From positions 1 to 64,000 of the forward strand of contig NZ_JAFVMH010000003.1 in the NCBI RefSeq assembly GCF_017377735.1: DNA of 64,000 nt, read 5' to 3'. Position 1 is the stretch's first letter, and every line of letters starts with the position of its first letter. Shown one piece after another: positions 23,093 to 39,432 of this stretch. Under the pieces are notes generated by a model, which ran no database searches, was not told the DNA's origin, and worked only from the letters and a program-made list of their open reading frames with translations. Origin of the DNA: Acetobacter garciniae (GTDB lineage: Bacteria; Pseudomonadota; Alphaproteobacteria; Acetobacterales; Acetobacteraceae). Position numbers and translations under genes: made by a program.

Positions 23093-23097
23093 GGACG

Positions 23098-23781
23098 ATG
23101 TTCCGTCGCTCCACCACACGCTACGGGACCACACCCGAGCCTGTCACCCCGTACCAGAAAGCCGCGCAGGCGTGGGATGAACGGATCGGTTCCGCCCGCA
23201 TCCAGGCCCGTAACTGGCGGCTGATGGCGTTCGGCTCCCTGTTTCAGTCCGCGGGCCTTGGCGTAGGGCTGGTCTGGCAATCCGCGCGCGGCACCATCAC
23301 GCCGTGGGTCGTGCAGGTGGACCGGCTGGGGCAGGCGCAGGTCGTGGCCCCCGCAACAGCGGGCTATATGCCCGCTGATCCGCAGATCGCCTGGTATCTG
23401 GCGCAGTTCGTTCACGACGTGCGCGCCCTGTCGTCGGACCCCGTTGTGGTCCGGCAGAACTGGCTGCGGTCCTATGATTTCACCACCACGTCAGGCGCGC
23501 AGACGCTCAACGATTATGCCCGTCTGAATGATCCGTTCTCGCGCATCGGGCATGAGCAGATCGAGGTGGACATCGCCTCGGTGATCCGGGCCTCGCCCGG
23601 CAGCTTCCGGGTCGCCTGGACCGAGCGTCATTACCGCGACGGCGCTTTCACCGGCACCGAGCGCTGGACCGCCATTGTGTCGGTCGTTCTGCGTACACCC
23701 CGCGACGCGGATCACCTTCGGAAAAACCCTCTGGGCATCTACGTCTCTGCCATCAACTGGTCGAAGGAGCTGAGCCAATGA
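23098..23781 (+). CDS. trbF: TrbF/VirB8 assembly factor
   Basis: A 227-residue bitopic protein. N-terminal cytoplasmic segment FRRSTTRYGTTPEPVTPYQKA, one membrane helix near residues 40-58 (LMAFGSLFQSAGLGVGLVW), then the periplasmic VirB8 domain. I prefer ATG at 23098 over 23089, because AAAAGGA is 9 bases from it but abuts the earlier ATG. The stop overlaps trbG. Confidence 0.92.
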   Translation: MFRRSTTRYGTTPEPVTPYQKAAQAWDERIGSARIQARNWRLMAFGSLFQSAGLGVGLVWQSARGTITPWVVQVDRLGQAQVVAPATAGYMPADPQIAWYLAQFVHDVRALSSDPVVVRQNWLRSYDFTTTSGAQTLNDYARLNDPFSRIGHEQIEVDIASVIRASPGSFRVAWTERHYRDGAFTGTERWTAIVSVVLRTPRDADHLRKNPLGIYVSAINWSKELSQ

Positions 23782-24779
23782 TCCGTCGTGCTCTTCGTGT
23801 CCTGCCGCTGCTGATCCTGCCCCTGGCCGGCTGCGCGCAGCATTACCATCCGCCGGTCATCCGCTATGATGACGCTGTTCAGGCGACACGTCTGCCGGAT
23901 CCGCCGAAACCGGTACAGGTCGTCGAAGTCCCGCAGCCACTTCCCCTGCCGGGGCAGCTCAAGCCGCTGCCGTCGCGACGCACGGCCCATCCGGCCCCCG
24001 AGGCTGCCGACCCGACAGCGCGTGTGACACAGGCCAATCTGGCAGCGCGCATCCAGCCCACGCGAGCCGGGTTCATCAACGCGGTGCAGGTCTATTCTTA
24101 TTCTCCGGGTGCCCTCTATCAGGTCTATGCATCGCCCGGCGAAATCACCGACATCATGCTCCAGCCAGGCGAGAAGCTGGTCGGCACCGGACCCGTGGCG
24201 GCAGGTGACACCGTACGTTGGATCATCGGTGATACCGAAAGCGGGGCAGGGGCGACGAAGCGTATCCATATCCTGGTCAAGCCGACCCGGCCGGACCTGA
24301 CCACCAACCTGATCGTTAACACCGACCGGCGGACCTATCTGGCGGAACTGCGTGCCACCCCCGCCACCTATATGGCGTCGGTGTCGTGGGATTACCCCGA
24401 GGACGACCTGATCGCCTTGCACCGGCAGGACAGCGCCGCCGATGATGCCAGCCCACTGGATACAGGGCTGGACCTGAACGCGCTGAATTTCCGCTATGCC
24501 ATCCAGCCGGTGAAAGGCGGGACGCCGCCCTGGCTGCCTGGCCGGGCGTTCGATGACGGTCATAAGGTCTATATAGCCTTTCCATCAGGGATCGGGCAGG
24601 GGGAACTGCCCCCTCTGTTCGTGCTGGGGGCGGATGGCGGGCCGGAACTGGTGAATTACCGGGTGCGGCAGAACTGGATGATCGTGGACCGGCTGTTCGC
24701 TGCCGCCGAACTGCGGCTGGGCGACAAGCATTCCGAGCAACGGGTGCGCATTGTTCGAACCGATGGACGGAAGTCATGA
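23778..24779 (+). CDS. trbG: TrbG/VirB9 outer-membrane complex protein
   Basis: A 333-residue protein with a lipoprotein-like signal (LLILPLAGCAQHYHPP; Cys at about residue 16). A proline-rich linker (DPPKPVQVVEVPQPLPLPGQ) and a VirB9/CagX domain with VQVYSYSPGALYQVYASPGEITDI follow. It forms part of the periplasmic core with TrbI. Both ends overlap neighbours. Confidence 0.92.
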   Translation: MIRRALRVLPLLILPLAGCAQHYHPPVIRYDDAVQATRLPDPPKPVQVVEVPQPLPLPGQLKPLPSRRTAHPAPEAADPTARVTQANLAARIQPTRAGFINAVQVYSYSPGALYQVYASPGEITDIMLQPGEKLVGTGPVAAGDTVRWIIGDTESGAGATKRIHILVKPTRPDLTTNLIVNTDRRTYLAELRATPATYMASVSWDYPEDDLIALHRQDSAADDASPLDTGLDLNALNFRYAIQPVKGGTPPWLPGRAFDDGHKVYIAFPSGIGQGELPPLFVLGADGGPELVNYRVRQNWMIVDRLFAAAELRLGDKHSEQRVRIVRTDGRKS

Positions 24780-25954
24780 CCGGGCAATCACCGGCAGAGG
24801 GCGGGACGTCCTCGCCCCCACATCCATCACCACCGCCCGATCTGCGCCTGCGGGCGGAACGGCCGCGCGTCGTGCGGCTGTCGCGCACTGTGGTCTGGGC
24901 GCTCGGTGGGGGAGGGATGCTCGCCATTGGTCTGGCACTTGGCTACGCGCTGGAGAACAGCAGCCACAAAGCGCCACTGGCCGCCAGCCAGGACACGGAT
25001 GTGCGTCCGTCCGCCGATGGGCTGGCGGGGCTGCCCTCAGACTATGTCGGCAGTGGCGTCCCGAAGCTCGGTCCCGCGCTGCCCGGCGATCTCGGGCACA
25101 CTATCCTGAAAGCAGAGGAGCAGGGAAAAGTCGCATCCGGTGGGGAGGATCGCCGGGCAGCGCAGGAGGTGGAGGCGGCAATCGCCAGCAAATTGTTCGT
25201 GCAGACAGGGGAGCGTGACCGTGTCGGCACACAGGCGGCGGCGCCTGTATCGGGTGCCTCAACTTCTCCGGGACCAGCAGCCCCTGCGACCGACGCACAG
25301 TCTGGCAATCGCGCTTTTCTGGCGGGTCAGCCTGACCGCGCGACGCTCAGCCCCGATCGGATCGCGCCTCCTGCTTCGCCTTATATCCTTCAGGCAGGCA
25401 CCGTGATCGCGGGTGCGCTAAACACGAAAATCAGTTCCGACCTACCGGGCCAGATTACCGGCCATGTGACTCAGAACGTCTATGACAGCCCGACCGGCCA
25501 CTATCTCCTGATCCCGCAGGGAAGCCTGCTGTTCGGGGCCTATAACAGCGGGATTGCCTTCGGGCAGCAGCGCACCCAGATCATCTGGACCCGGCTGATC
25601 TTTCCCGATGGCGAAAGCCTGGTGTTGGAAAAACTGCCGGGCGGCGGCGCTATCGGCCAGTCTGGCCTGTCCGACGAGGTGAACAATCACTGGGGTCAGC
25701 TTTTCAAGGCGGCTCTGGTCACGACCCTGCTCAGCGTGGGTTCGGAGGCGGGCACGTCGTGGAATGAAAACAATCTCATGCAGGCAATCCGCTCCGGCGC
25801 CAGCAACGGCTTCTCCATGGTCGGCAACCGCCTGATCGACCGCAGCCTCAACGTCCAGCCCACCCTGACCGACCGGCCGGGGCTGCCGTTCACCCTCATT
25901 CTGAATCGCGACCTGATCCTGAAACCTTGGCACGTAAAGGCACTGCCTCGATGA
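24776..25954 (+). CDS. trbI: TrbI/VirB10 channel scaffold
   Basis: A 392-residue protein. Proline-rich cytoplasmic N-terminus, one membrane helix (VVWALGGGGMLAIGLALGYAL) at about residues 40-60, then a variable periplasmic region. The C-terminal VirB10 domain runs from about residue 205 (ILQAGTVIAGALNTKISSDL, YLLIPQGSLLFGAYNS). Overlaps trbG and the DUF2274 gene. Confidence 0.93.
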   Translation: MTGQSPAEGGTSSPPHPSPPPDLRLRAERPRVVRLSRTVVWALGGGGMLAIGLALGYALENSSHKAPLAASQDTDVRPSADGLAGLPSDYVGSGVPKLGPALPGDLGHTILKAEEQGKVASGGEDRRAAQEVEAAIASKLFVQTGERDRVGTQAAAPVSGASTSPGPAAPATDAQSGNRAFLAGQPDRATLSPDRIAPPASPYILQAGTVIAGALNTKISSDLPGQITGHVTQNVYDSPTGHYLLIPQGSLLFGAYNSGIAFGQQRTQIIWTRLIFPDGESLVLEKLPGGGAIGQSGLSDEVNNHWGQLFKAALVTTLLSVGSEAGTSWNENNLMQAIRSGASNGFSMVGNRLIDRSLNVQPTLTDRPGLPFTLILNRDLILKPWHVKALPR

Positions 25955-26191: not shown

Positions 26192-27112
26192 CTATTCAAT
26201 ATTCTTCTTTCTCAAGAAAGAAAGTATTTTATGTACGACGGTCGACGAATTTCTATCACGCCATCCAATGCCGTAATCAAGATGTGAAAAACCGTCGCCG
26301 TCGCGCACTTCCAGCACAGTTACCTGCTCAAGGATCGTATCTGGAAAAAACGCGAGCCAGCCAGTCGGCATAAGCGTAATACCATGCCCGTTTATAACGA
26401 GAGCGATCGTCCGCAGACTTCTGATTTCTTCCCTACGCACTGTTGGCAGAAAGCCAGCAATGCTCGCTTTGCGTTTTAACAGTGTATGCATGTCCTCTCC
26501 TGTATCATCATTGCCGAAGACAAAAGTTGCTTCCTGTAAATCGCTCCAACACGTTGTTACAGATGAGGCAAGAGGATGGTGTGTCGGTGTCACAGCGACA
26601 ATTCGATCGCTCCACAGTGGTAAGGTAGCTGCGCCAGGTTCGTTCAGTGGAAGGGTTATAATTACTAAATCAACGATACCGTCGAAAAGCGCCGAAATTA
26701 CATCTCTGTGGGATGCGTCACGATATATAAAAGAGATACCGGGGTGAAGAATTCTATAAGGTTCGATGAAGTCCGATACTCGTCCTGGCGGTATATTGCT
26801 TTGTATTCCTATTGATACGATAACGCTTTCGCCAAAGGCGCATCTCCGAGTATATTCATAAAGAGTATTTGTGTCGTGCAGCAGAGCCTCAGCCTGTCGG
26901 AGGAATGCTTCGCCGACTGGCGTAGGCGTTGTGCCAGATGATGTCCTGCGGAAAAGCTGAATTCCGACGCGCTCCTCAAGTAGTCGAAGTGAACGACTGA
27001 CTGCGGACTGTTTGGAATTTAGAGCGCGCGCCGCGCCATGGATACTTCCTTGAAGAGCAATTGCGCACACGCATTGCAGTTCCCGTAGATCAAGAGGAGG
27101 GTGTCTTACCAT
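26192..27112 (-). CDS. LysR-family transcriptional regulator
   Basis: A 306-residue regulator. N-terminal HTH (LRELQCVCAIALQGSIHGAA, SKQSAVSRSLRLLEERVGIQLF) and a substrate-binding domain from about residue 95. It ends one base from the trb block and is convergent with it. Its 3'-side position after copD, on the same strand, and the 179-base AT-rich gap before it leave its target unclear. A role in controlling the copper locus is conjecture. Confidence 0.85.
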   Translation of the reverse strand: MVRHPPLDLRELQCVCAIALQGSIHGAARALNSKQSAVSRSLRLLEERVGIQLFRRTSSGTTPTPVGEAFLRQAEALLHDTNTLYEYTRRCAFGESVIVSIGIQSNIPPGRVSDFIEPYRILHPGISFIYRDASHRDVISALFDGIVDLVIITLPLNEPGAATLPLWSDRIVAVTPTHHPLASSVTTCWSDLQEATFVFGNDDTGEDMHTLLKRKASIAGFLPTVRREEIRSLRTIALVINGHGITLMPTGWLAFFPDTILEQVTVLEVRDGDGFSHLDYGIGWRDRNSSTVVHKILSFLRKKNIE

Positions 27113-27291: not shown

Positions 27292-28182
27292 CTAGTTTGT
27301 AGGTAGAGATAAGGTTGTCGGGTCCATTCGCCCAGCAACGGCAACAATTGCAATAATAGCAGCAGAAAATGCAATTTCGGCTATTGTTCCGCGTTGAAGA
27401 TATTTAAGGCTTGCCGTAATGTTTCTCTTCTGTCGTAGATTTCTTACGTAAACATATCGGTTGACGCAGGCGATACAGACCATACCGCTCGTTAATCCCA
27501 GCTTGAGAATGAGTAGTGTAGAATAGACAGTGAAATGCTTCGGCCATCCGCCCAGGATGTTCAGGCCCAGTCCAGAACCGGTAAGTAGGACCAAAGGCAC
27601 CGCGATATGTCCCGCAGCCGAATACCGTGCTAACGCCATTTGCATGGAGAGATCCCACTTCTTTTTTCGTGTATCACTGACAAGCATGGCAACGGGGATG
27701 AGGCCCCCGCACCAGAAACCACCTGCAAGCAAATGCACGGCCTGGAAGAACATCGCGCCCATACCGATCATGCGCACGTGACCTGTCAGAGCTGTCGCCG
27801 TCAGAAGCAAGCATGCGGGTATGACCGACAGGAGCGCGCCGCATTTACGCCAAGTTAGAAGTAGAAGACAGACACCAGCTACGGCCTGAATGATCCACGC
27901 CTGTCCAATGGTGGTGTCAACAAGCACGGCTTTGCTTAAAGTCGGCGAGAAGGCATCCTGCCACCCATCTCCGACCTCGGAGACTTCGGCTGGCAGTGTT
28001 GCAATGACTATTACTGTCGTAAAAACGCTCCCCCATGCCCAAAACTTTCTCAGGCGGGCAGAGAGTGCGATTCCGAGGTCGCGCGGAGCCAGCCACCCTG
28101 CAAAAAGCAGGCTACCTGTAAGAAAGAGCGCCAGGCTGTCTCGTGCGGCGCGACATAGGATCAGGAAAGCATCCGGTGTCAT
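27292..28182 (-). CDS. copD: CopD-family copper transport membrane protein
   Basis: A 296-residue polytopic protein with about eight hydrophobic segments (SLALFLTGSLLFAGW, ILKLGLTSGMVCIACVNRYV) and the family residues in TGHVRMIGMGAMFFQAVHLLAGGFWCGGL, which includes histidines and methionines expected to bind copper. CopD is thought to import copper handed over by CopC. The start overlaps the copC stop (ATGA). It is the last gene of the methanobactin-locus transcription unit. Confidence 0.88.
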   Translation of the reverse strand: MTPDAFLILCRAARDSLALFLTGSLLFAGWLAPRDLGIALSARLRKFWAWGSVFTTVIVIATLPAEVSEVGDGWQDAFSPTLSKAVLVDTTIGQAWIIQAVAGVCLLLLTWRKCGALLSVIPACLLLTATALTGHVRMIGMGAMFFQAVHLLAGGFWCGGLIPVAMLVSDTRKKKWDLSMQMALARYSAAGHIAVPLVLLTGSGLGLNILGGWPKHFTVYSTLLILKLGLTSGMVCIACVNRYVYVRNLRQKRNITASLKYLQRGTIAEIAFSAAIIAIVAVAGRMDPTTLSLPTN

Positions 28183-28556
28183 CGGTTAGTAACTGTGAAC
28201 CCATAGACGCCATGAGTCTTGTGTCCATCGACGGCAAGGGCGTGCCAGGTTACGGAATACCGTCCAGGCACGAGCTCAATTTTGAGCGGGACCGTCAGAG
28301 TCTTGCCGTCATCCGACAGGGCAACGTTTCCTGTTTCTATAACATTACCCTTGGGGCCAGTGACAACGACGCCGGTGAGCTTGACAACTACTGCTTCAGT
28401 AAAGCCTAGCGTCAGGCTCTGCGGTGCCGTTCCCGTGCTATCCGCAGCGGGTATTTCGGCGTTCAGGTGGGCATGTGCATAGGCAGGGTCCCCCATCTGC
28501 AGAACGAAGTTCCCTGCGAGACACATAGAGGCAACGATTTTACGGATAGAAGTCAT
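28179..28556 (-). CDS. copC: CopC periplasmic copper-binding protein
   Basis: A 125-residue secreted protein. The signal peptide ends at PAYAHAHLNAEIPAADS, placing a histidine at or near the mature N-terminus. DGHKTHGVYGFTV at the C-terminus supplies the conserved Asp/His of the Cu(II) site. I chose ATG at 28556 because AAGGAAAG lies upstream; an earlier in-frame ATG at 28598 would spoil the signal peptide. It is separated from the aminotransferase by about 100 bases. Confidence 0.88.
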   Translation of the reverse strand: MTSIRKIVASMCLAGNFVLQMGDPAYAHAHLNAEIPAADSTGTAPQSLTLGFTEAVVVKLTGVVVTGPKGNVIETGNVALSDDGKTLTVPLKIELVPGRYSVTWHALAVDGHKTHGVYGFTVTNR

Positions 28557-28655
28557 GTTTACTTTCCTTGCTTGGTGTGAATTACAGCAGAAAGACAAAT
28601 ATTTTCAGAGAAAAAAGTCTCTTATTGACCAACGAAAGGGATACCTTCGACGCAG

Positions 28656-29996
28656 CTATGCTGTTGAAAACAGAATAGTATTGAAAGCTTTCGTCATGCG
28701 TTGCTCAAGCTCATCAATGTCTTTTTTAGAAATAATGAGAGGAGGTGCTAAAATTATGCTGTCGTATGAGATTCTTATCAGCACGCCGTGTTCCATACAC
28801 GCTTTCACAACTGACCGTTTTATGTCTGTCTTCTCATCATTTCGGAAATCAAGCTCCCTGTAGCTACAAAATCCGACTTCAATCGCGCTTAATAATCCGA
28901 TTGTCCGTGTGGATCGGACCAGCTCGTGTGCCGCAAGTTTCGAAATCATCTTTATCCAATGTTCCGAAATATCCTGCACATGATCTACTATTCTTTCATC
29001 CTCGTAGATTTTTAGCGTTTCAAGGGCGACGGCAGCGGCAACAGGATGTGCGTGATATGTGCCGCCATGATGAAACCCATGGTGCATAATCGAGCAGTCC
29101 ACCAATGCGGAGTGAAAATCATCATTCATGACGACCGCCGAAATCGGTTGATAGGCCGCTGAAAGCCCCTTCGATGCGACGAGGCAGTCGGGCGTCTGGT
29201 TGACGGTCTGGCTTCCCCACATCTTTCCGGTTCGACCGAAGCCCGTCACGATTTCATCGAAATAAAGAGGAATATCGCGCATCGACAAGACATTGCGTAT
29301 TGCTTCAAAATATCCTTTCGGCGCTGGGTACATGCCGCCAGCAATCGAGACTGGCTCGCAGAGGAAGGCCGCGATATTTTCGGCACCCGTGTGATCTATC
29401 AGTTCTGCCAGTTCCCGCGCCAGGCGATGTGCATAATCTTCTTCTGTTTCTCCAGCCAACGCGTCGCGTGGCCAGCGCGGTTGCGCAGCATACAGAATAT
29501 CGTCACCCGTCAGATCGAATGAATTGATAATGCTTTCGATCCCGCCAAGTCTCGTGGCAAATATCGTCGATCCATGATAGCTCCCCCGACGCGTGATTAT
29601 TTTATGCCGTTTTGGATTTCGTTGTTTATTGATGTACCACGTTGTTTTAATGAGAGTTTCGATTGCTTCCGATCCGGTTGTGGCGAAAAGAACGTGAGCG
29701 TCCGGTATCGGCGCTGCCGCGCTGAGCGCGTCCGAAAGCGCGTGGACGACAGGGACCGTCCGGTTTAGCGCGGTGGGATAGACTGGCAGCTCTCGCATCT
29801 GGCGTGTGGCGGCTTCGATCAGGCGTTCATTATGAAAGCCGAGCGTGGCACAAAACAGTGCCGACACCGCGTCGATATAGTCTTTACCCGAAGAATCGAA
29901 GACGAAGACACCAGATCCAGATACCATATCGACGCCTGATGACATGGCGGAGTTGCTAAGATGCGATAAGCCGTACACTAGTCGCGAAGTCATCAT
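28656..29996 (-). CDS. Class-III PLP aminotransferase in the methanobactin operon
   Basis: A 446-residue fold-type I aminotransferase of the omega-amino-acid/DAPA type. FATTGSEAIETLIKTTWY is the cofactor-phosphate region, LYFDEIVTGFGRTG holds the PLP-contacting Asp, and CLVASKGLSAAYQP holds the Schiff-base lysine. The start overlaps the mbnH stop (ATGA), so it belongs to the operon. Known methanobactin operons can encode an aminotransferase (MbnN) that deaminates the N-terminal residue of the processed peptide. Whether this class-III enzyme does that, or makes a precursor, cannot be told. Confidence 0.85.
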   Translation of the reverse strand: MMTSRLVYGLSHLSNSAMSSGVDMVSGSGVFVFDSSGKDYIDAVSALFCATLGFHNERLIEAATRQMRELPVYPTALNRTVPVVHALSDALSAAAPIPDAHVLFATTGSEAIETLIKTTWYINKQRNPKRHKIITRRGSYHGSTIFATRLGGIESIINSFDLTGDDILYAAQPRWPRDALAGETEEDYAHRLARELAELIDHTGAENIAAFLCEPVSIAGGMYPAPKGYFEAIRNVLSMRDIPLYFDEIVTGFGRTGKMWGSQTVNQTPDCLVASKGLSAAYQPISAVVMNDDFHSALVDCSIMHHGFHHGGTYHAHPVAAAVALETLKIYEDERIVDHVQDISEHWIKMISKLAAHELVRSTRTIGLLSAIEVGFCSYRELDFRNDEKTDIKRSVVKACMEHGVLIRISYDSIILAPPLIISKKDIDELEQRMTKAFNTILFSTA

Positions 29997-31168
29997 TGTG
30001 CGCCTTTACCAGAGGGAGAGGCTGAGGGCAGAGCCAAAGGGCAGGTCTTTCCCGGATCTGAGAACGCCGGGTTAGTGAGGAAGCTCTGATCCGTTAGGGA
30101 GTTCAGGAAGGCGATCACGTCCGCGATCTCCGCCTCGCTGATTTCGAACGGCTCGATGAACTGGTCGCGTAACGGGTTCTCTCCGTGTGGCCCTGTCGCC
30201 GACCGACCTCCCTTCGAGTAATGTGCTGCCAGCACGTCGTGCAGCGTGGCGATGGAGCCATCATGCATATAGGGACCCGTCAGGGCGACGTTACGCAGGC
30301 TTTCCGTGCGGAATTTCCCCTCATCGTCGGCATTGCCCGTCACAGTCCGCAATCCGTGATCACTGGCAGGATAGGCCCCCTTGCTGTCCTCGTTATACAA
30401 GCCGGTATTGTGAAAACCTGTTTCCGGGAAAGGCATGTTCGCGGAGCGGATATTGTCGGTCAGGTTCAGGCCGTTATGGCAATGTGAACATTCCAGCTTC
30501 TCGCCGAAGAACAGCGCCTCGCCCCGTTGCGCGGCCGGGGACAGCGCCGTCTTGTCGCCATGCAGCGAGTGGTCGTAGGGGCTGTCGAAGGACAGCAGTG
30601 TGCGCTCGAAGGATGCAATCGCCTTCGTGACTGTGGAAAGTGTGATCGCGCCCTTCGCCTCGGGAAAGGCGATGCGAAACAGGTGCGTATAGCAGGGATC
30701 ACCCGAGAGCCTAGCGAACAGAGCTTTTTCCTGGCCGCCCATGCCCAGCTCGACCGGTTGGTCGCCGAACATCGGGATCAGCATCTGTTTCTCCAGCGTG
30801 GTGAGTTGTGGATTGGCCCAGGTATAGCTCGGCAGATAGGCTACGTTCGCTAGCGGCATCGGTGTGCGTAGTCCTGGCTCGCCATGCGCGCCTACATGCG
30901 TCGGGACACCAGAGGCGAAGCCCAGATTCTGGAGATGGCACGACGCGCAGGCAAGCGTCCCGTTCTCCGATAGCCGCTTGTCGTAAAACAGCCGCCGCCC
31001 CAGTGCGACCTTCTCCGCCGTCATCGGATTGTCGGACGGGACGACTGGCGCAGGCGCCCAGGAAGGGATATCCCAATGCCACGTCGCGGGCTGGGCTGCG
31101 GCCGATAGAAGCAGCGCGCCCCCACCCATAAGGGCCATCTGGAGAACTTTGCGAATAAACGTGCGCAT
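29993..31168 (-). CDS. mbnH: MbnH, MauG-like di-heme enzyme
   Basis: A 391-residue periplasmic di-heme c protein. Signal sequence MRTFIRKVLQMALMGGGALLL, first heme motif CASCH near residues 74-78, second CSHCH near 225, and TGPYMHDGSIATLHDV, the region of the distal ligand. MbnH forms a pair with MbnP and, in methanotrophs, oxidises a tryptophan of MbnP to kynurenine. I chose ATG at 31168, one base after the mbnP stop; an upstream in-frame extension has no signal peptide. Confidence 0.88.
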   Translation of the reverse strand: MRTFIRKVLQMALMGGGALLLSAAAQPATWHWDIPSWAPAPVVPSDNPMTAEKVALGRRLFYDKRLSENGTLACASCHLQNLGFASGVPTHVGAHGEPGLRTPMPLANVAYLPSYTWANPQLTTLEKQMLIPMFGDQPVELGMGGQEKALFARLSGDPCYTHLFRIAFPEAKGAITLSTVTKAIASFERTLLSFDSPYDHSLHGDKTALSPAAQRGEALFFGEKLECSHCHNGLNLTDNIRSANMPFPETGFHNTGLYNEDSKGAYPASDHGLRTVTGNADDEGKFRTESLRNVALTGPYMHDGSIATLHDVLAAHYSKGGRSATGPHGENPLRDQFIEPFEISEAEIADVIAFLNSLTDQSFLTNPAFSDPGKTCPLALPSASPSGKGAQ

Positions 31169-31169
31169 C

Positions 31170-32039
31170 CTATCGACCCCGAAATACCGACTGAGCGGGT
31201 GGGGAGGTCTCTGATCCGAATGGCAGGCCGAACTCACGGAATACACCTGCGCAATCCTTGTCGTCCGGTCCAGACATGCAACCTGGCGCACTATTAATCT
31301 GGTTGGTGCTGACATTACTCAGAGCGAGCAGTCGACTTATGTCGAGCTTCACGGTCTGATGCGCCGGATTGAACTCCGGCAGCGTGACCGTGACGAGGTT
31401 CGGGGCCGTGCACGCGCCCTTCGGCGCCTCGACCGGACTGGCGGACTCACAGCCGGTGCTACCGATGTGGACAGGGAAGCCATGGGGTCGCGCTTTGTCG
31501 CCAGGCTTCGGAATCATCATGATATCAAGTGTAAAAAAACGATATCCTGACTGCCAGGTCCAAAACATGCTCGTCATGTTCAGCGGTGGCTGTGCAATCG
31601 TAGGATCGCCGTGATTGGCGGCCATAGGTAGCCCAACGGTGAAGCGCAGGCCGGCGAAATGGCCTTGCGGCCAGACAAAACTGATAGTCGAGTTCGGCGA
31701 CGGAGCCGTATCGCTGCATGGAATATTGCGATCAATCAGGTCGATCAGCGCGATCCCGTCACGCTGCCAGAGGCCTGACGGCCCTGGCTTGACCGGCACC
31801 GCACGACCGTCCTTTGTGAGTAGCGCCACATCGTGGATGTAAAAGCGTAGATCGTTGACCCGGACCGTGTCGCCCTGCGTGCCGACCGGCGAAAGCGTGC
31901 GGGTGCAGCTTATCGGCTGATCGCCGAATACAGCTTGGAACGTCAGGTGCCCGAGTTTTGGCGCCGCATAGGTGTTTGACGACACCCCCGTTATCAAAGC
32001 GCTAGCGAACAACGCTCTAAACATCATCAACGATTTCAT
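31170..32039 (-). CDS. mbnP: MbnP, four-Cys metal-binding partner of MbnH
   Basis: A 289-residue secreted protein. The signal peptide MKSLMMFRALFASALITG is followed by a domain with conserved strands (DLRFYIHDVALLTKDG), a tryptophan-rich MFWTWQSGYRFF and paired cysteines (GCESAS...GACTAP, GCMSGPDDKDC). This is the MbnP/metallo-mystery-pair family, which binds copper close to a modified tryptophan. GGGAG lies 6 bases before the ATG at 32039. MbnH follows after one base. Confidence 0.85.
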   Translation of the reverse strand: MKSLMMFRALFASALITGVSSNTYAAPKLGHLTFQAVFGDQPISCTRTLSPVGTQGDTVRVNDLRFYIHDVALLTKDGRAVPVKPGPSGLWQRDGIALIDLIDRNIPCSDTAPSPNSTISFVWPQGHFAGLRFTVGLPMAANHGDPTIAQPPLNMTSMFWTWQSGYRFFTLDIMMIPKPGDKARPHGFPVHIGSTGCESASPVEAPKGACTAPNLVTVTLPEFNPAHQTVKLDISRLLALSNVSTNQINSAPGCMSGPDDKDCAGVFREFGLPFGSETSPPAQSVFRGR

Positions 32040-32080
32040 TACCATCTCCCGATAACGGTCCAAAACGCGACTTATACGTC

Positions 32081-32668
32081 TCAATTCTGCGATGCGGCGT
32101 TATTCAGCAACGTCCACCCTGGAAATGTTTCCAAATCCCATGACGGAATTAGAAAGTATCCGAATCCGTTCTCTGGTGGGGACGGTGGCGAGCCGATATT
32201 TATTTCTTCGATGCTCCTTACTAGGTGGACGTTCCGTGCCTTGAATGCGACAGTCCATGTCGGATCGGAGCTATGTGCTATCGCAATCCCCAGAAAGGAC
32301 GAGCGGTCGAGGGCCGCCCATTGGGCAGCAGCAACAGCACGCACTTCACGGCAGACCTGTTTTGTTAATTTCCCGGCCAATGGAGATTGAGCAAGCCAGT
32401 CATAGACTGACAAGTGAAGGGTCCAATCCAAGGGATCGCGGTGCTCATAGGCCCATTCCATAAACGGCCTGAATATGACGCCGTTATTTTCGTCATCTAT
32501 TTCCTGTAAAGAAGGGCAGGGATCGAATATCGCGTGCCACGTTCCTCGTAACGCTATATTTATCCTTACCTGTTGGCGGTGAGAAAGATTGAAATCTCTT
32601 TCTCGTGAAGGGCGCGTCATGCTGCTGATAACATCGCAATCACGCTCTAAATTATGGTCAGAAGTCAT
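32081..32668 (-). CDS. mbnC: MbnC, partner of the MbnB oxidase
   Basis: A 195-residue protein with no ordinary domain but the MbnC pattern: FRPFMEWAYEHRDPLDWTLHLSVYDWL, FLGIAIAHSSDPTWTVAFKARNVHL and FLIPSWDLETFPGW. MbnC binds the precursor peptide and works with MbnB to turn Xxx-Cys pairs into oxazolone/thioamide groups. The ATG at 32668 overlaps the mbnB stop, though a start 16 codons later (MTRPSRE) is possible. No signal peptide, so cytoplasmic. Confidence 0.85.
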   Translation of the reverse strand: MTSDHNLERDCDVISSMTRPSRERDFNLSHRQQVRINIALRGTWHAIFDPCPSLQEIDDENNGVIFRPFMEWAYEHRDPLDWTLHLSVYDWLAQSPLAGKLTKQVCREVRAVAAAQWAALDRSSFLGIAIAHSSDPTWTVAFKARNVHLVRSIEEINIGSPPSPPENGFGYFLIPSWDLETFPGWTLLNNAASQN

Positions 32669-33471
32669 TTAACAGCGTTCTTCTGCAATGTAAGTTGTTG
32701 TCGTATTCTTGTGATATCTTGAACAATACTGTCATATTCAACATTACGATCTCGTTCGTACGTGATAGTCGTTTCTGAATGGCAAAGCCTTGATCTCAGG
32801 TCGGAGAGAAAACTCAGTGTTTCCACAGAAATCTCGGTGCCGTGTGTGTCGATCATTACATTCGGATCACTTACCGACGGCTCGTAACTTCCTACATGAA
32901 AATGCCGTGTTTCGTTTGCTTCGCTGATCCAGCTTTCCGTGGAGGCGCCACAATTTATCTCGGAACAGACAGCGTTCGATATATCAAACAATAGCCCTGT
33001 CCCGACTTCCCTTCGCAGATCAGAAAAGAATTCGGGCGCTTCAAATCCACCATCTAATATAGACGGAAAATTTTCTAGAAATAATTTCTCACCAATTTGC
33101 TCCTGCCACCACGATGCTTTCTCAATTAAAACTTTTCTGTTCCTGTAGTCTATCTCGGAAAGGAATGAGAGATTTTGGCCATTGCACGAAAAAGACGCAA
33201 GGTGGTCAGAAATGTATATAGGCTTTAGAATATGTGCATGATAGCGAATTTGTTCAGCCATCTGGCTCAGAGATTCTCTATCATTTTCTAAAAATCTGGA
33301 GCGCATAATGTGGAAAGAAACTGGACATTTGACAGTTGCCAGTAGCTCGTGCGGATCTAGATGAAGAAAGTTATCTATAAGAATTTCGTAGTAATCTATA
33401 TGACCATCATTTAGTAATTTGTTTGCAATTGGCAGAACTTCGCTTCTGGTAAAATTAAAACCGATGCGCAT
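32665..33471 (-). CDS. mbnB: MbnB, DUF692-family iron oxidase of methanobactin synthesis
   Basis: A 268-residue TIM-barrel enzyme of the DUF692 family. Likely metal ligands are in CPVSFHIM, IYISDHLASF, LFLENFPSI, LLFDISNAV and ETRHFHVGSYE. MbnB uses a multi-iron centre and oxygen to oxidise cysteines of MbnA. GGGAG precedes the ATG at 33471. It follows mbnA across a strong hairpin and is coupled to mbnC. Confidence 0.9.
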   Translation of the reverse strand: MRIGFNFTRSEVLPIANKLLNDGHIDYYEILIDNFLHLDPHELLATVKCPVSFHIMRSRFLENDRESLSQMAEQIRYHAHILKPIYISDHLASFSCNGQNLSFLSEIDYRNRKVLIEKASWWQEQIGEKLFLENFPSILDGGFEAPEFFSDLRREVGTGLLFDISNAVCSEINCGASTESWISEANETRHFHVGSYEPSVSDPNVMIDTHGTEISVETLSFLSDLRSRLCHSETTITYERDRNVEYDSIVQDITRIRQQLTLQKNAVK

Positions 33472-33499
33472 GATGGTCTCCCTTAATTAGAATAGGAAA

Positions 33500-33522
33500 G
33501 GGTGCGCGCATGGCGCGCACCC
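33500..33522 (-). terminator. Attenuator-like hairpin between mbnA and mbnB
   Basis: GGGTGCGCGC (33500-33509) pairs perfectly with GCGCGCACCC (33513-33522) around a 3-base loop. On the minus strand it is followed by CTTTCCTATTCT, not a clean T-run. It would let the precursor peptide be made in excess over the enzymes, as in many peptide operons, or protect the mbnA mRNA 3' end. Confidence 0.65.
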
Positions 33523-33530
33523 CCTATGGT

Positions 33531-33626
33531 TCAGTTATAACCACCACAGACCGTACCCGGACCGCAGATCGAACCGGCCATTGTTGAGACCTTGATCTCG
33601 CGACGAGAAAGAATGGTGATTTTCAT
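33531..33626 (-). CDS. mbnA: MbnA, methanobactin precursor peptide, 31 residues
   Basis: ATG at 33626 follows AAGGAG by 7 bases and opens a 31-codon frame ending TGA at 33531. The leader begins MKITILSRRE, like the basic leaders of other MbnA peptides. The C-terminal core is SICGPGTVCGGYN. It has two cysteines, each after a branched aliphatic residue and before glycine, so Ile-Cys and Val-Cys are the predicted oxazolone/thioamide sites giving one N2S2 copper site. The peptide lies directly upstream of mbnB-mbnC and downstream of the TonB receptor gene. Modification and copper binding are inferred. Confidence 0.85.
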   Translation of the reverse strand: MKITILSRREIKVSTMAGSICGPGTVCGGYN

Positions 33627-33649
33627 TGATAGACTCCTTGTCTTTGAAA

Positions 33650-33679
33650 TTGCCGATCATCACATCGATGTATCGGCAA
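33650..33679 (-). promoter_or_regulatory. Inverted repeat in the mbnA leader
   Basis: TTGCCGAT (33650-33657) and ATCGGCAA (33672-33679) flank a 14-base loop containing CATCGATG. It lies between the predicted promoter and the mbnA ribosome-binding site and could be an operator or RNA stem. Confidence 0.45.
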
Positions 33680-33682
33680 AGT

Positions 33683-33711
33683 ATAATAACATATATTGTT
33701 CAAGTAAACAA
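33683..33711 (-). promoter_or_regulatory. Predicted promoter of mbnA
   Basis: On the minus strand TTGTTT (33711-33706), a 17-base spacer and TATTAT (33688-33683), about 57 bases before the mbnA ATG. The gap to the upstream receptor gene is only 100 bases, so mbnA may also be read from the receptor's transcript. Confidence 0.45.
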
Positions 33712-33726
33712 AGTAAAAACGCAAAT

Positions 33727-35943
33727 TTAAAACTTATATGAAATATTGAACCTGAAGCTTCGTCCAATTTCAGGTACGTCATTATTGCTGGCGATAGATT
33801 TGTACATATAATATGTCTTATTGGTCAGATTGGTGACGGCAAAATTTACGCGCCACGGCTTGCCTGGCATTTGCCAGTCAAAAAGAATGTCATGCAACAT
33901 ATAGCCTGGTCTTCTGCGTGCTATCGTAGAGTCATAGTCTTGGGCTTCTACAGCGGTGAGGTTATACGTGGCGGTCAACCCAATTTTTGGAAAAGTGTAA
34001 CTCGCATCTGCTGCTACTTTATCTGGTTGAGCCAGAAGGTTGGCTCCGGTGTTTGCATCTCTCACACGGAGGTGGCTGTAACTTACGCCAAGATTGATGT
34101 TCTCTATATTGTAGGTTGCGCGAAGTTCAATTCCATAGCGGGTGGCGTGTTGAATGTTCGTATATTGATAGTTTATCTCGTTTGTTTTGTAGAGTGGGCT
34201 CCAGTGATGTCCGACCACAGATAGCTGAATAAGGTTCGTAGCATCTTCGTAGAAGCCTGTAGCACGCACCAATGCATGATCCTTGCGTGAGAACAATCCA
34301 CTTTTATTATAACTAAATCCACCTTCGTATGTACGAGCGCTTTCTGGTCTTAAGTTATTATTTGGAAGAAAATAATAACTATTTGGCGTTATGGCATAGT
34401 TCATATTTGTTTCTTGAATTGTTGGGGCGCGGTAATTTTTTCCCCAACTAAGATAGACCATCCAATTTCGATTTGGATGCCATGCTAAGGTAATTTTGGG
34501 TAGAATTGCACCGCTAGTGCTGGTGGACGAGCCAGACCCAAAGGTATTGTAGCGATCGTAACGAAGGCTTGGCGTTAGTACGATGCCGTACGGAAGTTTA
34601 ATCTCATCTGATCCGTAGAATCCGTAAACTTGCTGTTGCCCGTCGGGGATAGTTCCTCCTCCTTGCCCGTTTTTTTGAAGAGTATGATTGATGTCTCGAT
34701 AGTAATTTGCTCCAACTACAAACATATGTGAACCAAGATAGCCAAAATTTTCCCTGAATATTTTTTGAATATCAGCCCCATAAGTTTCCAGTGTTTGCGT
34801 CTCGCCCACTATTGATGTCTTAATAAAAGGACCGTACCATGACGTCATTTTTGATCTATAGAGCGTCAGTCTTCCATCTTCTTTTCCGTCAGAGTCCTTA
34901 GTGGTTAGGTGAATATTTGAGTCGTCTTGCCTGGTTCCGGTTTGTCGATAATAAGGAATATATGTCTTTGTTGACGAATTATAAACGGTAAATTTTTGTG
35001 CTTGTGCGTTGGCTGGACGATAATTTTCAATATAATAAAAACTCTGCCCGAAATCGACTCTGATCCGGTCTGTAATGTCGTAGCCCAGTTTTAAGAGTGC
35101 GCTATTGCTCGTACCGTTGTTCGGAGATAATTTTTGTCCTCCGCCTAGAGAAATCGGCCCGAATGACTGTCCTGCATACGCCAGCAGTCCGTCGAACTTT
35201 CCCCATTTTCCATACACTTTGGCAGCACCTTTGGCATTTTCATTTGCACTCTGATAACCGCCGTCTAACTCTGCACCCCATTTTCGGCCAGGCGCGAGGA
35301 GATCTTTGGCTTCGAGCGTCTTGATTGACATGACGCCTCCCATGGAGCCGCTGCCGTAAAGAGTTGATGCGGCCCCCATTACGACTTCGACAGACTGCAC
35401 GAATGCTGGATCGATATAGAGCGGTGTCTGGAAGCCGGCAAAACCATTGTCCGCATTGCGGCGTGCGCCATCGACCAAGAGGATAATGTCTCTTCCGTTG
35501 AAGCCTCGAATTTCAGGGATCTGGCCTTCGGTCCGTGCTCCGCCTGCCATATCAGCGTCAGGTAAACGATTGATGACATCAGCGAGCGTTGAAGACATAC
35601 GTCTTTCAATATCCTGACGGGTTATCAGGCTGACCGAGGCGGGAACATCCTGGATCCGCTGTGGCGTTCGCGTAGCTGTGACAACGAGCCGCTCAGCTGC
35701 GTTACTGGATATGGGGATGGCGGCTCCTGTTCTTACATGAGCACCAAGTTGTTTTGACGTGTTTCGCGATGACTGTTCCGGAGTTTTTTTAATCGCCGCC
35801 TGCCTGGTTGATGCGGCATTCTCACGCTCTTTTCCGGGCAGTTCATTGGCATGCGCCGCGAAGGACGGGATAAGAAAAATTGCGGCGGCAGAAAGTAAGT
35901 GCGCGCGGTGGAACGTGTGTGCGCAAACATGTGTCGAAGACAT
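33727..35943 (-). CDS. mbnT: TonB-dependent receptor, candidate copper-methanobactin importer (MbnT)
   Basis: A 738-residue outer-membrane receptor. Signal peptide (LLSAAAIFLIPSFAAHA), TonB box ERLVVTATRT near residue 85, plug domain (VPASVSLITRQDIERR, EIRGFNGRDIILLVDGARR, GSGSMGGVMSI) and a 22-strand-type barrel ending ...RFNISYKF with a C-terminal aromatic. The plug resembles the heme/hemoglobin-receptor branch. No STN signalling domain is present, so no FecIR-type control is expected. Position directly upstream of mbnA, on the same strand, supports an MbnT role. Confidence 0.78.
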   Translation of the reverse strand: MSSTHVCAHTFHRAHLLSAAAIFLIPSFAAHANELPGKERENAASTRQAAIKKTPEQSSRNTSKQLGAHVRTGAAIPISSNAAERLVVTATRTPQRIQDVPASVSLITRQDIERRMSSTLADVINRLPDADMAGGARTEGQIPEIRGFNGRDIILLVDGARRNADNGFAGFQTPLYIDPAFVQSVEVVMGAASTLYGSGSMGGVMSIKTLEAKDLLAPGRKWGAELDGGYQSANENAKGAAKVYGKWGKFDGLLAYAGQSFGPISLGGGQKLSPNNGTSNSALLKLGYDITDRIRVDFGQSFYYIENYRPANAQAQKFTVYNSSTKTYIPYYRQTGTRQDDSNIHLTTKDSDGKEDGRLTLYRSKMTSWYGPFIKTSIVGETQTLETYGADIQKIFRENFGYLGSHMFVVGANYYRDINHTLQKNGQGGGTIPDGQQQVYGFYGSDEIKLPYGIVLTPSLRYDRYNTFGSGSSTSTSGAILPKITLAWHPNRNWMVYLSWGKNYRAPTIQETNMNYAITPNSYYFLPNNNLRPESARTYEGGFSYNKSGLFSRKDHALVRATGFYEDATNLIQLSVVGHHWSPLYKTNEINYQYTNIQHATRYGIELRATYNIENINLGVSYSHLRVRDANTGANLLAQPDKVAADASYTFPKIGLTATYNLTAVEAQDYDSTIARRRPGYMLHDILFDWQMPGKPWRVNFAVTNLTNKTYYMYKSIASNNDVPEIGRSFRFNISYKF

Positions 35944-36088: not shown

Positions 36089-36580
36089 CTAGAAGACCGC
36101 AGACACAGGGGGGCCACAGGAGAAAGGAACACCAAGTGTGATGACAGGTGGAGCACGGGGGTTAACGATGTTGACGTGGCGTTGCCAACGAATAAACGCC
36201 AGTGCCAGCAAGATAACGAGAGCTGTGAACAGGAATACTGGCAGGTGCAGGAGAGGGCATAACGGACAGCTTCCATCGTGATGAGAAGGATGCCCGGACA
36301 TGTGGTCGTGGTCGCCCTCATTGTCGGCTGACACAGCCTGCGTCACATTGTCCATTGTCATGCCAGGCATATCCGCACAGACGGAGTGCTTATCTGGCGT
36401 GTGATAAACATGTGGAGCGATATCAATGCCTGTCAGGCGCAGGATGGTAGCACGAGGCATTTCTCCCGGCATTGCCTGACTCTGGATCAGGAGTTGCCCC
36501 AGAAAGCCCATGAGCGTGAACGCGACCAGAAACCAACGGCTCAATGAAGAGCGGGGCGCAGGATGTATGGCATGGGCCAT
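36089..36580 (-). CDS. DUF2946 histidine-rich membrane protein
   Basis: A 163-residue protein with an N-terminal hydrophobic segment (RWFLVAFTLMGFLGQLLI), a His/Met-rich loop (CADMPGMTMD, HDHMSGHPSHHDGSCPLCPLL) and a C-terminal membrane helix (VFLFTALVILLALAFI). The HDG-CPLC pattern marks DUF2946, often found beside copper-linked TonB receptors. The loop looks able to bind copper. It is probably the first gene of the receptor-mbn transcription unit, 145 bases upstream of the receptor. Confidence 0.75.
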   Translation of the reverse strand: MAHAIHPAPRSSLSRWFLVAFTLMGFLGQLLIQSQAMPGEMPRATILRLTGIDIAPHVYHTPDKHSVCADMPGMTMDNVTQAVSADNEGDHDHMSGHPSHHDGSCPLCPLLHLPVFLFTALVILLALAFIRWQRHVNIVNPRAPPVITLGVPFSCGPPVSAVF

Positions 36581-36750: not shown

Positions 36751-38038
36751 GGAGGGATCGAAGAACCCTTGATTGATACGCTTGGCTGTTGATTTCAGGT
36801 TTTTGGCGATTTGATTGACTACTTTTGGGTTGGTTTTCGATCTGCGTTTTAAGCAGATCGAGTGCTGCCCCCGCTGGATTGCTATGCATTCGCGCTGATC
36901 CGCTCCAGGAAGAGGAAGCGGCGCATATTATAGACGATATTGGCCAGGCCGATCCTCATGGTGGCCCGGGTGATACCGACAGTTCGGACGAACAGACCCA
37001 TTTGCGATTTCTGGTCAGCAAAGACATGCTCGACGCGTGATCGGATCACGGACTTTCCGGCGTTGGATTTCTGGAGATGCCTGGGCATAGGCTTGAGATG
37101 CGGCTTTTTCCTGTGAACTTTCGAGACAAAGCCCTGCTCCTCCATGAAGTCCTCATTCGCTTTTGAGCGATAGGCCGTGTCAGCCCAGACCGTTGAGGCC
37201 GTATTGGTTTTATCCAGCAGCCCCTCTCTCAATCGCGCGCCATCACTGGCGGCGGCATGCGTTGTTTTCCATTTCCGGATGAACCGGTATTTCCGATCGA
37301 TGGAAACATGCGATTTATAGCCAAAGAACGGGATGGCGAGATCGCTGGAGGGCATGGCTCCATCATCCTGCCGCTTCGCCTTCGTGAACTTCAGTGTCCA
37401 GCGCGCATGACGATCCTTGTGCGACAGCTTTGCGGGTTTGTCCTGCCAGTCTTCAGGAATACGTCCTTCCCGAAGATCGGCTTTCTCTGCATTGGTGTTC
37501 CGCTGCTTCGGAGCCGCTACCAGCGTGGCATCCAGGATCTGGCCTGACATCGGTAAATACCCGGCGTTACGCAGGGTCGCATCAAAGCGGTTGAACAGCC
37601 CATCGATCGCACCCGCCTGGGTCAGACGCTTTTGATACAGCCAGACCGTTTTGGCATCCGGCACCCGATCTGAAAGTCCCAGACCAAGGAAACGCATAAA
37701 GGAGAGGCGATCGTTGATCAGATATTCCGTCCGCTCATCAGACAAATTGTTGAGCGTCTGGATCACCAGGATCTTGAACATCAGCACCGGATCAAATGGC
37801 GGTCGTCCGCCTTTGCTTCCGTCAGAATACGCCAGAGCCTTCTCCAGGTCAGGGCGGAAGACTTCAAAATCCACAGTCCGGGAAAATGCTTCGAGCTGAT
37901 CACCAAGCCCGCTCAACCGAGCAAGCCGCTCTTCAACGTCAAAAAATCCCGCCTGCTTCATGATCCATACTCCAATCAACTAAGGGGAAATGGAATCACA
38001 GAGCAGACCTCAATACCAGGGGGTTTTTCGAACCCTCC
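36751..38038 (-). mobile_element. IS5-family insertion sequence
   Basis: Terminal inverted repeats GGAGGGATCGAAGAACCC (36751-36768) and, reversed, GGAGGGTTCGAAAAACCC (38021-38038) match at 16 of 18 positions and enclose one transposase gene. I see no clear target duplication. The right end lies 7 bases from the integrase stop codon. The insertion separates the copper locus from the integrase. Confidence 0.75.
36882..37961 (-). CDS. IS5-family DDE transposase
   Basis: A 359-residue transposase: N-terminal DUF772 region (GGRPPFDPVLMFKILVIQTLNNLSDERTEYL) and the DDE domain with GQILDATLVAAPKQR (first D), TVWADTAYRSKAN (second D) and RSRVEHVFADQKS (E, with the Y/R signature region). The frame is intact, so the element may be active. 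Start chosen at 37961 (MKQAGFF). Confidence 0.9.
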   Translation of the reverse strand: MKQAGFFDVEERLARLSGLGDQLEAFSRTVDFEVFRPDLEKALAYSDGSKGGRPPFDPVLMFKILVIQTLNNLSDERTEYLINDRLSFMRFLGLGLSDRVPDAKTVWLYQKRLTQAGAIDGLFNRFDATLRNAGYLPMSGQILDATLVAAPKQRNTNAEKADLREGRIPEDWQDKPAKLSHKDRHARWTLKFTKAKRQDDGAMPSSDLAIPFFGYKSHVSIDRKYRFIRKWKTTHAAASDGARLREGLLDKTNTASTVWADTAYRSKANEDFMEEQGFVSKVHRKKPHLKPMPRHLQKSNAGKSVIRSRVEHVFADQKSQMGLFVRTVGITRATMRIGLANIVYNMRRFLFLERISANA

Positions 38039-38044: not shown

Positions 38045-39214
38045 TCAGACGTTGCTCTTGCTGTCTCCTGAAACAAGTGCCGTAAAAATTTTCAGATCGA
38101 TCTCTTTGACTGCACGCTGGATTGGTTCTTTCTTGAGGTGAGCATAACGTGCAGTCGATTTGAGATCGCGATGGCCCAGCAGTTTCCCGATCATGATCAG
38201 ATCTTCGCCGAGTTCAAGCGCATCGGATGCGAAGGAATGACGAAGATCGTGAATGCGGACGTCCACTAGCCCGGCTTCCTTTCGGATGCGTCGCCACGGC
38301 TTCTCCAGATCGGTCAGATGACCACCGTCCTTCCGTCCAGTGATGACATACGGATTGCCCGCGATCATGGGAATGCTCTTCAGCAGGCCTACTGCACTCT
38401 CGCCCAACTGAACGGTTCGAGCGCCATTTTTGCTGTCGGGTAGTCTGATTACCCCTTCGTCCAGAAAAACATATTCCCATTTCAGACGTTGAATTTCCCG
38501 AAGGCGGCAACCTGTTAAAAGCAGGAGTTGAAACGCATTGACGGCTTCCGGCATCGCGGAACGGGCGTCGTCGAGTGCTTTGCCGAGACGCTGATGTTCT
38601 TCTGTTGTGAGGTAGCGCTCGCGCTTCTGCTCCTTATAGCGTTTCACGCCCCTGCATGGATTGACGTTGTCTGTCCGCACACCCCATAGGATTGCCAGAG
38701 AGAACATTTTCGACAGTACCCCCAGCGTTCGGTTCGCCTGATATGGGATATGCCGGTAGGTATGGTGAAATGTAACGATATCAGAATGAGTGACAGAGGC
38801 TAGCTTCCGGCTGCCAATTTTTTTCGTAATGAACAGGTCAATCGCGCGTTGATATTCGCCTTGTGTGGTTTGTTTCAGATGCGTCTTCACATGCCGTTCA
38901 ATGAAAATCTTACAGAACTGGCTGACGGTGGGAGAAGCCCGCTCTTCGTCGCGTTCTGTGTTTGGATCGTTGCCGTCTTTCACGCGGGCGAGGATTTTGA
39001 TCGCTTCGTCGCGTGCTTTGTCTGCCGTCCAGGGACCATGATGGCCAATCGTATAACGTCGGAACCGGCCATTGGCTCGATAATGGACCACGTAGCTCAT
39101 TCGGCCTGAAGGCCAGACCCGCAAGGCGAAGCCGGCGACTTGATCGTCCCAGACGATGTAGTCCTTCTCAGCAGGCTGGAGGGTGGCGATTATGCGCTTT
39201 GATATCCGGGGCAT
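38045..39214 (-). CDS. int: P4-type tyrosine integrase
   Basis: A 389-residue integrase. N-terminal DUF4102-like domain (DQVAGFALRVWPSGRMSYVVHYR), core-binding domain near 90-180, and catalytic residues R in LLTGCRLREI, HDLRHSFAS and GHRDLKSTARYAHL (tyrosine nucleophile). ATG at 39214 follows GGAGG closely; the frame runs further upstream without a site. The tRNA-fMet remnant lies 174 bases beyond its start, so it most likely recombines there. Confidence 0.92.
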   Translation of the reverse strand: MPRISKRIIATLQPAEKDYIVWDDQVAGFALRVWPSGRMSYVVHYRANGRFRRYTIGHHGPWTADKARDEAIKILARVKDGNDPNTERDEERASPTVSQFCKIFIERHVKTHLKQTTQGEYQRAIDLFITKKIGSRKLASVTHSDIVTFHHTYRHIPYQANRTLGVLSKMFSLAILWGVRTDNVNPCRGVKRYKEQKRERYLTTEEHQRLGKALDDARSAMPEAVNAFQLLLLTGCRLREIQRLKWEYVFLDEGVIRLPDSKNGARTVQLGESAVGLLKSIPMIAGNPYVITGRKDGGHLTDLEKPWRRIRKEAGLVDVRIHDLRHSFASDALELGEDLIMIGKLLGHRDLKSTARYAHLKKEPIQRAVKEIDLKIFTALVSGDSKSNV

Positions 39215-39387
39215 GGCTGCCTCCACAGGATGCGTATAGGATGCAAATGGGACTGAAACGTCAGTGTGAGTAAGCGTAGACAGAAGAACCAAAATGAACA
39301 ACTTATTCAATTAAAATAATGGGATAGTAGTGGTTCTTCGGGATGCATCGGGGAGTTTCGTGGCAGGGCGTAGCTCTTGCCTACAAA

Positions 39388-39432
39388 CTCATAACCTGAA
39401 GGCCGCAGGTTCAAATCCTGCCCCCGCAACCA
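39388..39432 (+). other. Attachment-site remnant: 3' part of tRNA-fMet
   Basis: CTCATAACCTGAAGG, GGTTCAAATCCTG and CCCCCGCAACCA match initiator tRNA from the anticodon loop (CAT) to the 3' CCA. The 5' half is missing: bases before the loop do not pair with the 3' anticodon strand. This is what integration at the 3' end of a tRNA gene leaves at one end of an element. The intact tRNA-fMet should lie at the other end, outside the window. Confidence 0.8.

Follow-up and report, generated by a model that had tools for sequence, protein, structure and literature searches.

Work on methanobactins has so far been carried out mostly in methanotrophs. Methanobactin (mbn) genes of acetic acid bacteria are already published as Group IV operons of Gluconacetobacter sp. 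SXCC-1 and G. oboediens, in which the leader of the precursor is potentially longer by two residues and the core carries the C(G/A/S)(S/T) motif described for all cores of that survey (Kenney and Rosenzweig 2013, PMC3621798). More species were added in 2021, when a survey of the Acetobacteraceae predicted mbn clusters in Komagataeibacter nataicola (LMG 1536 included), K. rhaeticus, K. xylinus and Acetobacter oryzoeni, counted K. nataicola as a likely producer and found one MbnB sequence shared by A. oryzoeni, K. rhaeticus and K. xylinus LMG 1515; the section of that survey on these clusters gives no peptide sequence and no exchange of alleles (PMC8776678). Methanobactin genes were also noted in plasmid metagenomes in a study of kombucha (PMC7027524). 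Here we describe an mbn locus on a stretch of 64,000 nucleotides from Acetobacter garciniae (contig NZ_JAFVMH010000003.1, positions 1 to 64,000), referred to throughout as the window. Very probably, the mbnA gene of this locus encodes the precursor of a copper-scavenging methanobactin, and an exchangeable block, made up of the peptide, the enzymes that modify it and the ligand-binding portion of a TonB-dependent receptor, lies within a stabler copper framework on an apparent integrative conjugative element (ICE). What the locus adds to the published accounts is that the peptide, the enzymes and most of the receptor were exchanged together, as a block, on an apparent mobile element.

The initial annotation had proposed a 31-codon precursor gene with a good ribosome-binding site, naming no strand. 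The exact frame is present on the minus strand, where 31 codons and a stop translate as MKITILSRREIKVSTMAGSICGPGTVCGGYN and the sequence AAGGAG ends 7 bases 5' of the ATG. The peptide matches the NCBIfam methanobactin model TIGR04071 with 46.6 bits against a cut-off of 24 (E 2e-12), far beyond chance. It was the sole match to this model in a six-frame search of the window's genome (E 8.7e-11; 20 of 82 first-look candidates were scored), in which the peptide is present once, and none of 14 control genomes matched in the six-frame search. The proposed position right before mbnB and mbnC also holds, both lying directly downstream and scoring over the cut-offs of their equivalog models (TIGR04159 and TIGR04160); 59 bases separate the mbnA stop from the mbnB start, and mbnC overlaps mbnB by 4 bases. 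In MbnB, eight residues that coordinate iron have been described, along with a catalytic aspartate and with His211, likewise said to be needed critically for the third iron (Cell Research 2022, PMC8888699), and all ten positions are conserved in the window protein and in the 15 other MbnB sequences compared with it (16 in total). The best matches among solved structures are 7tcr and 7fc0 for MbnB and 7fc0 and 7tcr for MbnC. Relatives carrying the locus include Komagataeibacter and Gluconobacter, members of the same family as the window, and the frame and both cysteines are retained in 9/9 loci in which the mbnABC cassette is visible. The window form, with its frame, both cysteines and both Cys-Gly pairs, is conserved in three further genomes, identically in two and with the leader change I5V in the third; the same features are kept, in a divergent form, in five genomes, here called the second type. 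By the tests used here, mbnA is a genuine methanobactin precursor gene. The remark that it is too short for ordinary gene callers was partly right, since the mbnA genes of Methylocystis parvus and of Methylosinus sp. C49 are annotated in RefSeq. Neither the methanobactins already published for the family nor the mobile, mosaic character of the locus figured in the initial annotation.

Like the Group IV operons, the window locus has a two-cysteine precursor ahead of mbnB and mbnC and a class III aminotransferase, which was reported for SXCC-1 (PMC3621798). Unlike them, it has a leader that is not extended by two residues and a core without C(G/A/S)(S/T), both of which are features of the second type. 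Because the second type fits the extended leader and the motif and the window type has neither, the Group IV of 2013 would correspond to the second type, the features having been matched from the published description and not from sequences. The window mbnA is probably not among the precursors of the 2013 survey, since its core has no C(G/A/S)(S/T), which is said to be in every precursor there. A text search for the core strings found no papers, a weak negative as such sequences sit in figures and the search covered open-licence papers; nor was any report of the block exchange, or of the hairpin between mbnA and mbnB described below, found in the titles and abstract openings of the literature searched.

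The division of the precursor into leader and core is supported by the curated models and by conservation, and its boundary can be refined. The core more likely starts at Ile20 (ICGPGTVCGGYN) than at Ser19, give or take one residue, because of the alignment with other precursors and with the published core of Methylosinus trichosporium OB3b. The residues preceding the two cysteines are Ile20 and Val26, and modification of both cysteines would be expected to give rings derived from Ile and Val. The OB3b precursor, with four core cysteines against two in the window peptide, likewise places cysteines at positions 21 and 27; in this precursor modification was detected at Cys21 only, an earlier report having had Cys27 as well (PMC8888699). 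Modification of both window cysteines is likely, though not assured because of the OB3b result. In relatives each modified cysteine loses 4 Da and the product absorbs near 335 nm, and the RrMbnBC enzyme pair was active on Group I-V precursors, including that of Gluconacetobacter sp. SXCC-1 (PMC8888699), which supports the chemistry for a relative and not for the window peptide itself. The calculated monoisotopic masses with two modifications are 1131.41 for ICGPGTVCGGYN, or 1130.38 with an N-terminal keto group, and 1218.44 and 1217.41 (keto form) for SICGPGTVCGGYN; a copper(I) complex would lie about 61.92 higher, and modification of one cysteine only would add 4.03.

From these genes we infer the following route, in which the chemistry, copper binding, export and receptor ligand are all proposed. 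MbnC would bind the leader of MbnA, and MbnB would oxidise Cys21 and probably Cys27 to ring-thioamide groups of the oxazolone type. The leader would then be removed, the class III aminotransferase perhaps altering the new N-terminus, and the peptide would leave the cell through a transporter for which the cluster shows no gene. The copper-loaded peptide would re-enter through the TonB receptor, after which MbnP, MbnH, CopC and CopD would handle the copper, and the LysR-type protein may regulate the cluster. The reading draws on the curated models for MbnA, MbnB, MbnC, MbnP and MbnH, the conserved MbnB active site and the retained frame and cysteines, and also on the co-occurrence of mbnB, the aminotransferase and the receptor in the same 5/397 genomes.

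Several observations weigh against it. The core contains CGP and CGG only, although C(G/A/S)(S/T) is a description of the 2013 set of precursors and no experimentally shown requirement, and we do not take it as defining. Cys27 may remain unmodified in the window peptide. None of the cluster proteins scanned was a MATE exporter; the search for one did not extend to the rest of the genome. The receptor scores 399.7 bits against the heme/hemoglobin receptor model TIGR01785 (cut-off 316.85), and its best solved match is ShuA. Lastly, the far end of the carrying element was not found, and a candidate for it in the second-type genome G800 could be a coincidence. The missing exporter and the heme-receptor-like character of the receptor, together with a chemistry that is predicted, would suit a peptide that is modified by MbnBC and acts as a copper buffer, a signal or a growth inhibitor of neighbours and not as a chalkophore for copper uptake. 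This seems unlikely for a locus that is surrounded by MbnP, MbnH, CopC and CopD and in which the receptor has been exchanged together with the peptide and the enzymes. About as unlikely is that the receptor is an unrelated neighbour importing heme, as its TIGR01785 score and its match to ShuA might suggest, given that it occurs in the same genomes as mbnB, that most of it has been exchanged with mbnABC, and that receptors of its family precede mbnP and mbnH in four mbn loci outside the Acetobacteraceae.

The exchange itself is visible on comparison of the two cassette types. Among the nine loci with a visible cassette four are of the window type (the window genome, K. nataicola LMG 1536 or G222, Gluconobacter sp. 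Gdi or G323, and K. xylinus K2G30 or G254, which has the leader change) and five are of the second type, with the precursor M(A/I/T)ITITILKTKQISVPVRAGLQCGSGVCGYNA (G367, G779, G781, G800 and G826); each of the three genera holds both. Outside the block, the proteins compared between the window and G800 (integrase, DUF2946 protein, residues 1-132 of the receptor MbnT, mature MbnP, MbnH, aminotransferase, CopC, CopD and LysR) are 91-99% identical, with a synonymous divergence (dS) of 0.025-0.29. Inside it, identity falls to 61.5% for MbnT from residue 133, 55% for MbnA, 45% for MbnB and 42% for MbnC, and dS is 1.9 for mbnA and saturated for the other three. Counted directly, 23/440 residues differ in MbnH against 149/266 in MbnB and 111/189 in MbnC. 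The first 132 residues of MbnT are common to both types, with a breakpoint at about residue 133; nucleotide identity drops across 35547 from about 96% to 51-70% and returns across 31967 to 84% and then 94%. The framework has exceptions, two bins in the integrase at 85-86% and one at 81-82% that spans the copD 3' end and the copD-lysR spacer. The blastn edges are identical to within 6 bases in all five second-type loci, so that one exchange followed by the spread of both forms would suffice.

Because the flanks are 91-99% identical with low dS while synonymous sites in the block are at or near saturation, the cassette difference is best described as block replacement and not drift. Fast evolution of the cassette under diversifying selection, which would fit the concentration of amino-acid change in MbnA, MbnB, MbnC and the receptor, as expected of a contested ligand-receptor pair, is very improbable, since selection on protein does not saturate synonymous sites within a block and leave them little changed outside, and the sharp edges near 31967 and 35547 are common to all five second-type loci. 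On balance we favour a switch of methanobactin type by recombination, in which most of the receptor, the precursor, MbnB and MbnC were replaced as a unit within the copper framework of a conjugative element, with junctions in the receptor plug and in the MbnP signal peptide. If so, the junction in the plug would keep the TonB-coupling end of the receptor, and methanobactins would be a private-goods system with exchangeable specificity. Exchangeable specificity is familiar from the siderophore and receptor types of other bacteria. Two sharply different peptide types in similar clusters, each in the same three genera, amount to a natural experiment, which asks whether each receptor is specific to the peptide of its own type and whether any peptide will do for MbnP, MbnH and the aminotransferase. 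Komagataeibacter and Gluconobacter are routinely grown and are not methanotrophs, so copper uptake could be studied in them apart from methane oxidation.

In a tree of 101 MbnB sequences the two types form separate, fully supported clades, with no resolved order between them and the remaining groups, and the five second-type MbnB proteins are identical to one another. The window type is grouped with the proteins P0005 and P0006 (97/96), the latter named from Acetobacter tropicalis; these are 58% and 56% identical to the window MbnB, respectively, and suggest a third cassette type. An MbnC tree of 16 sequences places the two types side by side, on long branches (97/96). MbnH was compared by residue counts, the branches of its tree being too short for 22 differing residues. 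The locus of K. xylinus K2G30 (L041) is mixed. Its cassette is of the window type, with 17/268 MbnB and 20/195 MbnC residues differing from the window, yet its MbnH (matching window 29996-31315) differs from that of G800 at 7/440 residues and from that of the window at 22/440; the histories of cassette and framework thus differ. The copD-lysR side of K2G30 is nearer the window, at 98-99% nucleotide identity against 86-97% for G800. Within its receptor, identity to the window is 66-77% over residues of about 208-420 (window about 35318-34683) and then 89-93%; residues 1-213 lie on a separate contig and are 92% identical, and the peptide core is unchanged. The divergent receptor segment, together with an MbnH nearer to the second type than to the window, indicates that recombination acted more than once, within the receptor and around the cassette.

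Among 397 genomes of the family 45 matched TIGR04159 at E <=0.001, of which 5, the window genome included, scored over the cut-off; one of the 14 control genomes matched and none was over it. The same 5/397 genomes gave the aminotransferase (E <=1e-150) and the receptor (E <=1e-100). No genome with the receptor only was seen among the matches listed, a weak negative, as at most four (aminotransferase) or two (receptor) first-look candidates were scored per genome. An MbnH probe, which misses genomes with mbnABC but a distant MbnH, found copies of about 95% identity or better (one partial) in 11 of 94 genomes of the three genera: 3/49 in the genus of the window, 6/19 in that of G367 and 2/26 in that of G323. 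The mbnABC region is visible on the contig in nine of these eleven and is not on the contig in G809 and G780; a search of the whole G780 genome returned no MbnB match. An insertion of about 1.2 kb splits the aminotransferase gene of G780 (L098, 907-3489), where the cluster is perhaps decaying. Over 15.1 kb the locus of K. nataicola LMG 1536 matches the window at 99.99% identity. Plasmid records held no near match to the cluster, and a protein search of them with MbnB returned 17 records, all below 60% identity. A match to TIGR04071 in G673 (23.2 bits, under the cut-off) was dropped, no tblastn match to any of 11 cluster proteins lying nearby (L048).

The gap between mbnA and mbnB holds a GC-rich hairpin. 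Fold z-scores for this gap are -3.4 in the window, -5.1 in K2G30, -4.2 in G367 and -4.5 in G800; in operons of unlike sequence they are -2.5 (G446), -3.5 (G428), -3.3 (Methylosinus C49) and only -1.4 (Methylocystis parvus, L133), these eight being the loci folded. Long stems of unrelated sequence occur in the gap (window, L040, L094, L044, L045 and L135), in both types and in several distant operons. A consensus scan called no canonical terminator after mbnA, and the hairpin is therefore not claimed as one; it likely serves a high ratio of precursor to enzyme. Hairpins are known as dosage devices from other peptide operons.

On the same strand as mbnA, mbnB, mbnC, mbnP, mbnH, the aminotransferase, CopC-like, CopD-like and LysR genes follow in this order on its 3' side, and the receptor and DUF2946 genes lie 5'. 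To the left of the cluster are genes for RepA, an S26 peptidase, a lytic transglycosylase, a relaxase, TraG and trb-type proteins, so that with the tyrosine integrase on the other side the component set of an ICE (integrase, relaxase, coupling protein and type IV secretion genes) is present together. The cluster thus looks to be carried by an ICE of acetic acid bacteria, presumably of the trb type, such as the Tn4371 family, to judge from RepA, the relaxase, TraG, the trb genes and the tyrosine integrase, and the element may still be mobile today. Similarity to relatives breaks off at 39432-39434 wherever a locus extends this far (five loci: L040, L043, L094, L096 and L101), the sequence differing beyond. 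The terminal 45 bp recur unchanged as the 3' end of a tRNA-Met gene in G800. That gene is 108.8 kb distant and oriented as the opposite end should be; as the 45 bp occur several times in G800 it is a candidate only, and a 13-bp partial repeat at 52.6 kb is another. ARAGORN called no tRNA in the window, seven relatives and four further stretches; in a scan of five loci it called one, in a single locus. The cargo apparently passes from one related backbone to another, because the cargo proteins of Gluconobacter sp. Gdi are 98.6-100% identical to those of the window while trbG (dS 0.59) and trbI (dS 0.29) have diverged. Integrases and conjugation-related genes near mbn operons were noted in the 2013 survey (PMC3621798).

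Table 1. Features of the mbn locus and of the element that carries it, in window coordinates.
Feature	Position	Strand	Evidence
Conjugation and replication backbone: RepA, relaxase, TraG, trb-type genes	6804..25954	+	Pfam matches
LysR-type regulator, candidate cluster regulator	26192..27112	-	PF00126, PF03466
copD-like copper membrane protein	27292..28182	-	PF05425 58.6 bits, cut-off 32.1; NCBIfam CopD 179.3, under cut-off 195
copC-like copper protein	28179..28598	-	PF04234
Class III aminotransferase (class called MbnN in Gluconacetobacter sp. SXCC-1)	28656..29996	-	PF00202
mbnH, di-heme enzyme	29993..31315	-	TIGR04039 440.5 bits, cut-off 362.85; CxxCH at residues 123, 276
mbnP, copper-binding partner protein, WxW motif	31170..32084	-	TIGR04052 270.7 bits, cut-off 140; WTW at residue 175
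Exchanged block: most of mbnT, mbnA, mbnB, mbnC, mbnP signal peptide	31967..35547		Identity to second type in 250-base bins: 51-70% inside, mostly 92-99% outside
mbnC, leader-binding partner of MbnB	32081..32668	-	TIGR04160 231.3 bits, cut-off 185; matches MbnC of PDB 7fc0
mbnB, multinuclear iron oxidase (MNIO/DUF692)	32665..33471	-	TIGR04159 398.9 bits, cut-off 325; ten active-site positions conserved
mbnA-mbnB hairpin, 10-bp GC-rich stem, CAT loop	33500..33522	-	Gap folds at -26.9 kcal/mol, z -3.4
mbnA, methanobactin precursor, 31 residues, Cys21 and Cys27	33531..33626	-	TIGR04071 46.6 bits; translation
TonB-dependent receptor, proposed MbnT	33727..35943	-	PF00593, PF07715
DUF2946 protein, upstream of receptor	36089..36580	-	PF11162 24.3 bits, cut-off 23.7; 98.8% identical between types
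IS5-family transposase; absent from 4/5 second-type loci (fifth contig ends earlier)	36882..37979	-	NF033581; alignments
Tyrosine integrase of carrying element	38045..39310	-	PF00589, PF13356
Element end with 45 bp of tRNA-Met 3' end	39388..39432	+	Similarity to relatives stops here

The MbnB of Gluconobacter sp. Gdi (L042, 4265-5068) is apparently 7 residues shorter at its end than that of the window. Two more exact copies of the 45 bp of tRNA-Met are present in the window genome, at C39:47831-47875 and C7:9605-9649; ARAGORN found no whole tRNA nearby, and these copies are possibly the ends of other islands. The conjugation region also encodes an Abi_C protein, with an abortive-infection C-terminal domain (12973-13800), and just beyond the element end lie a FecR-like regulator and a TonB receptor with an STN domain (40215-44029).
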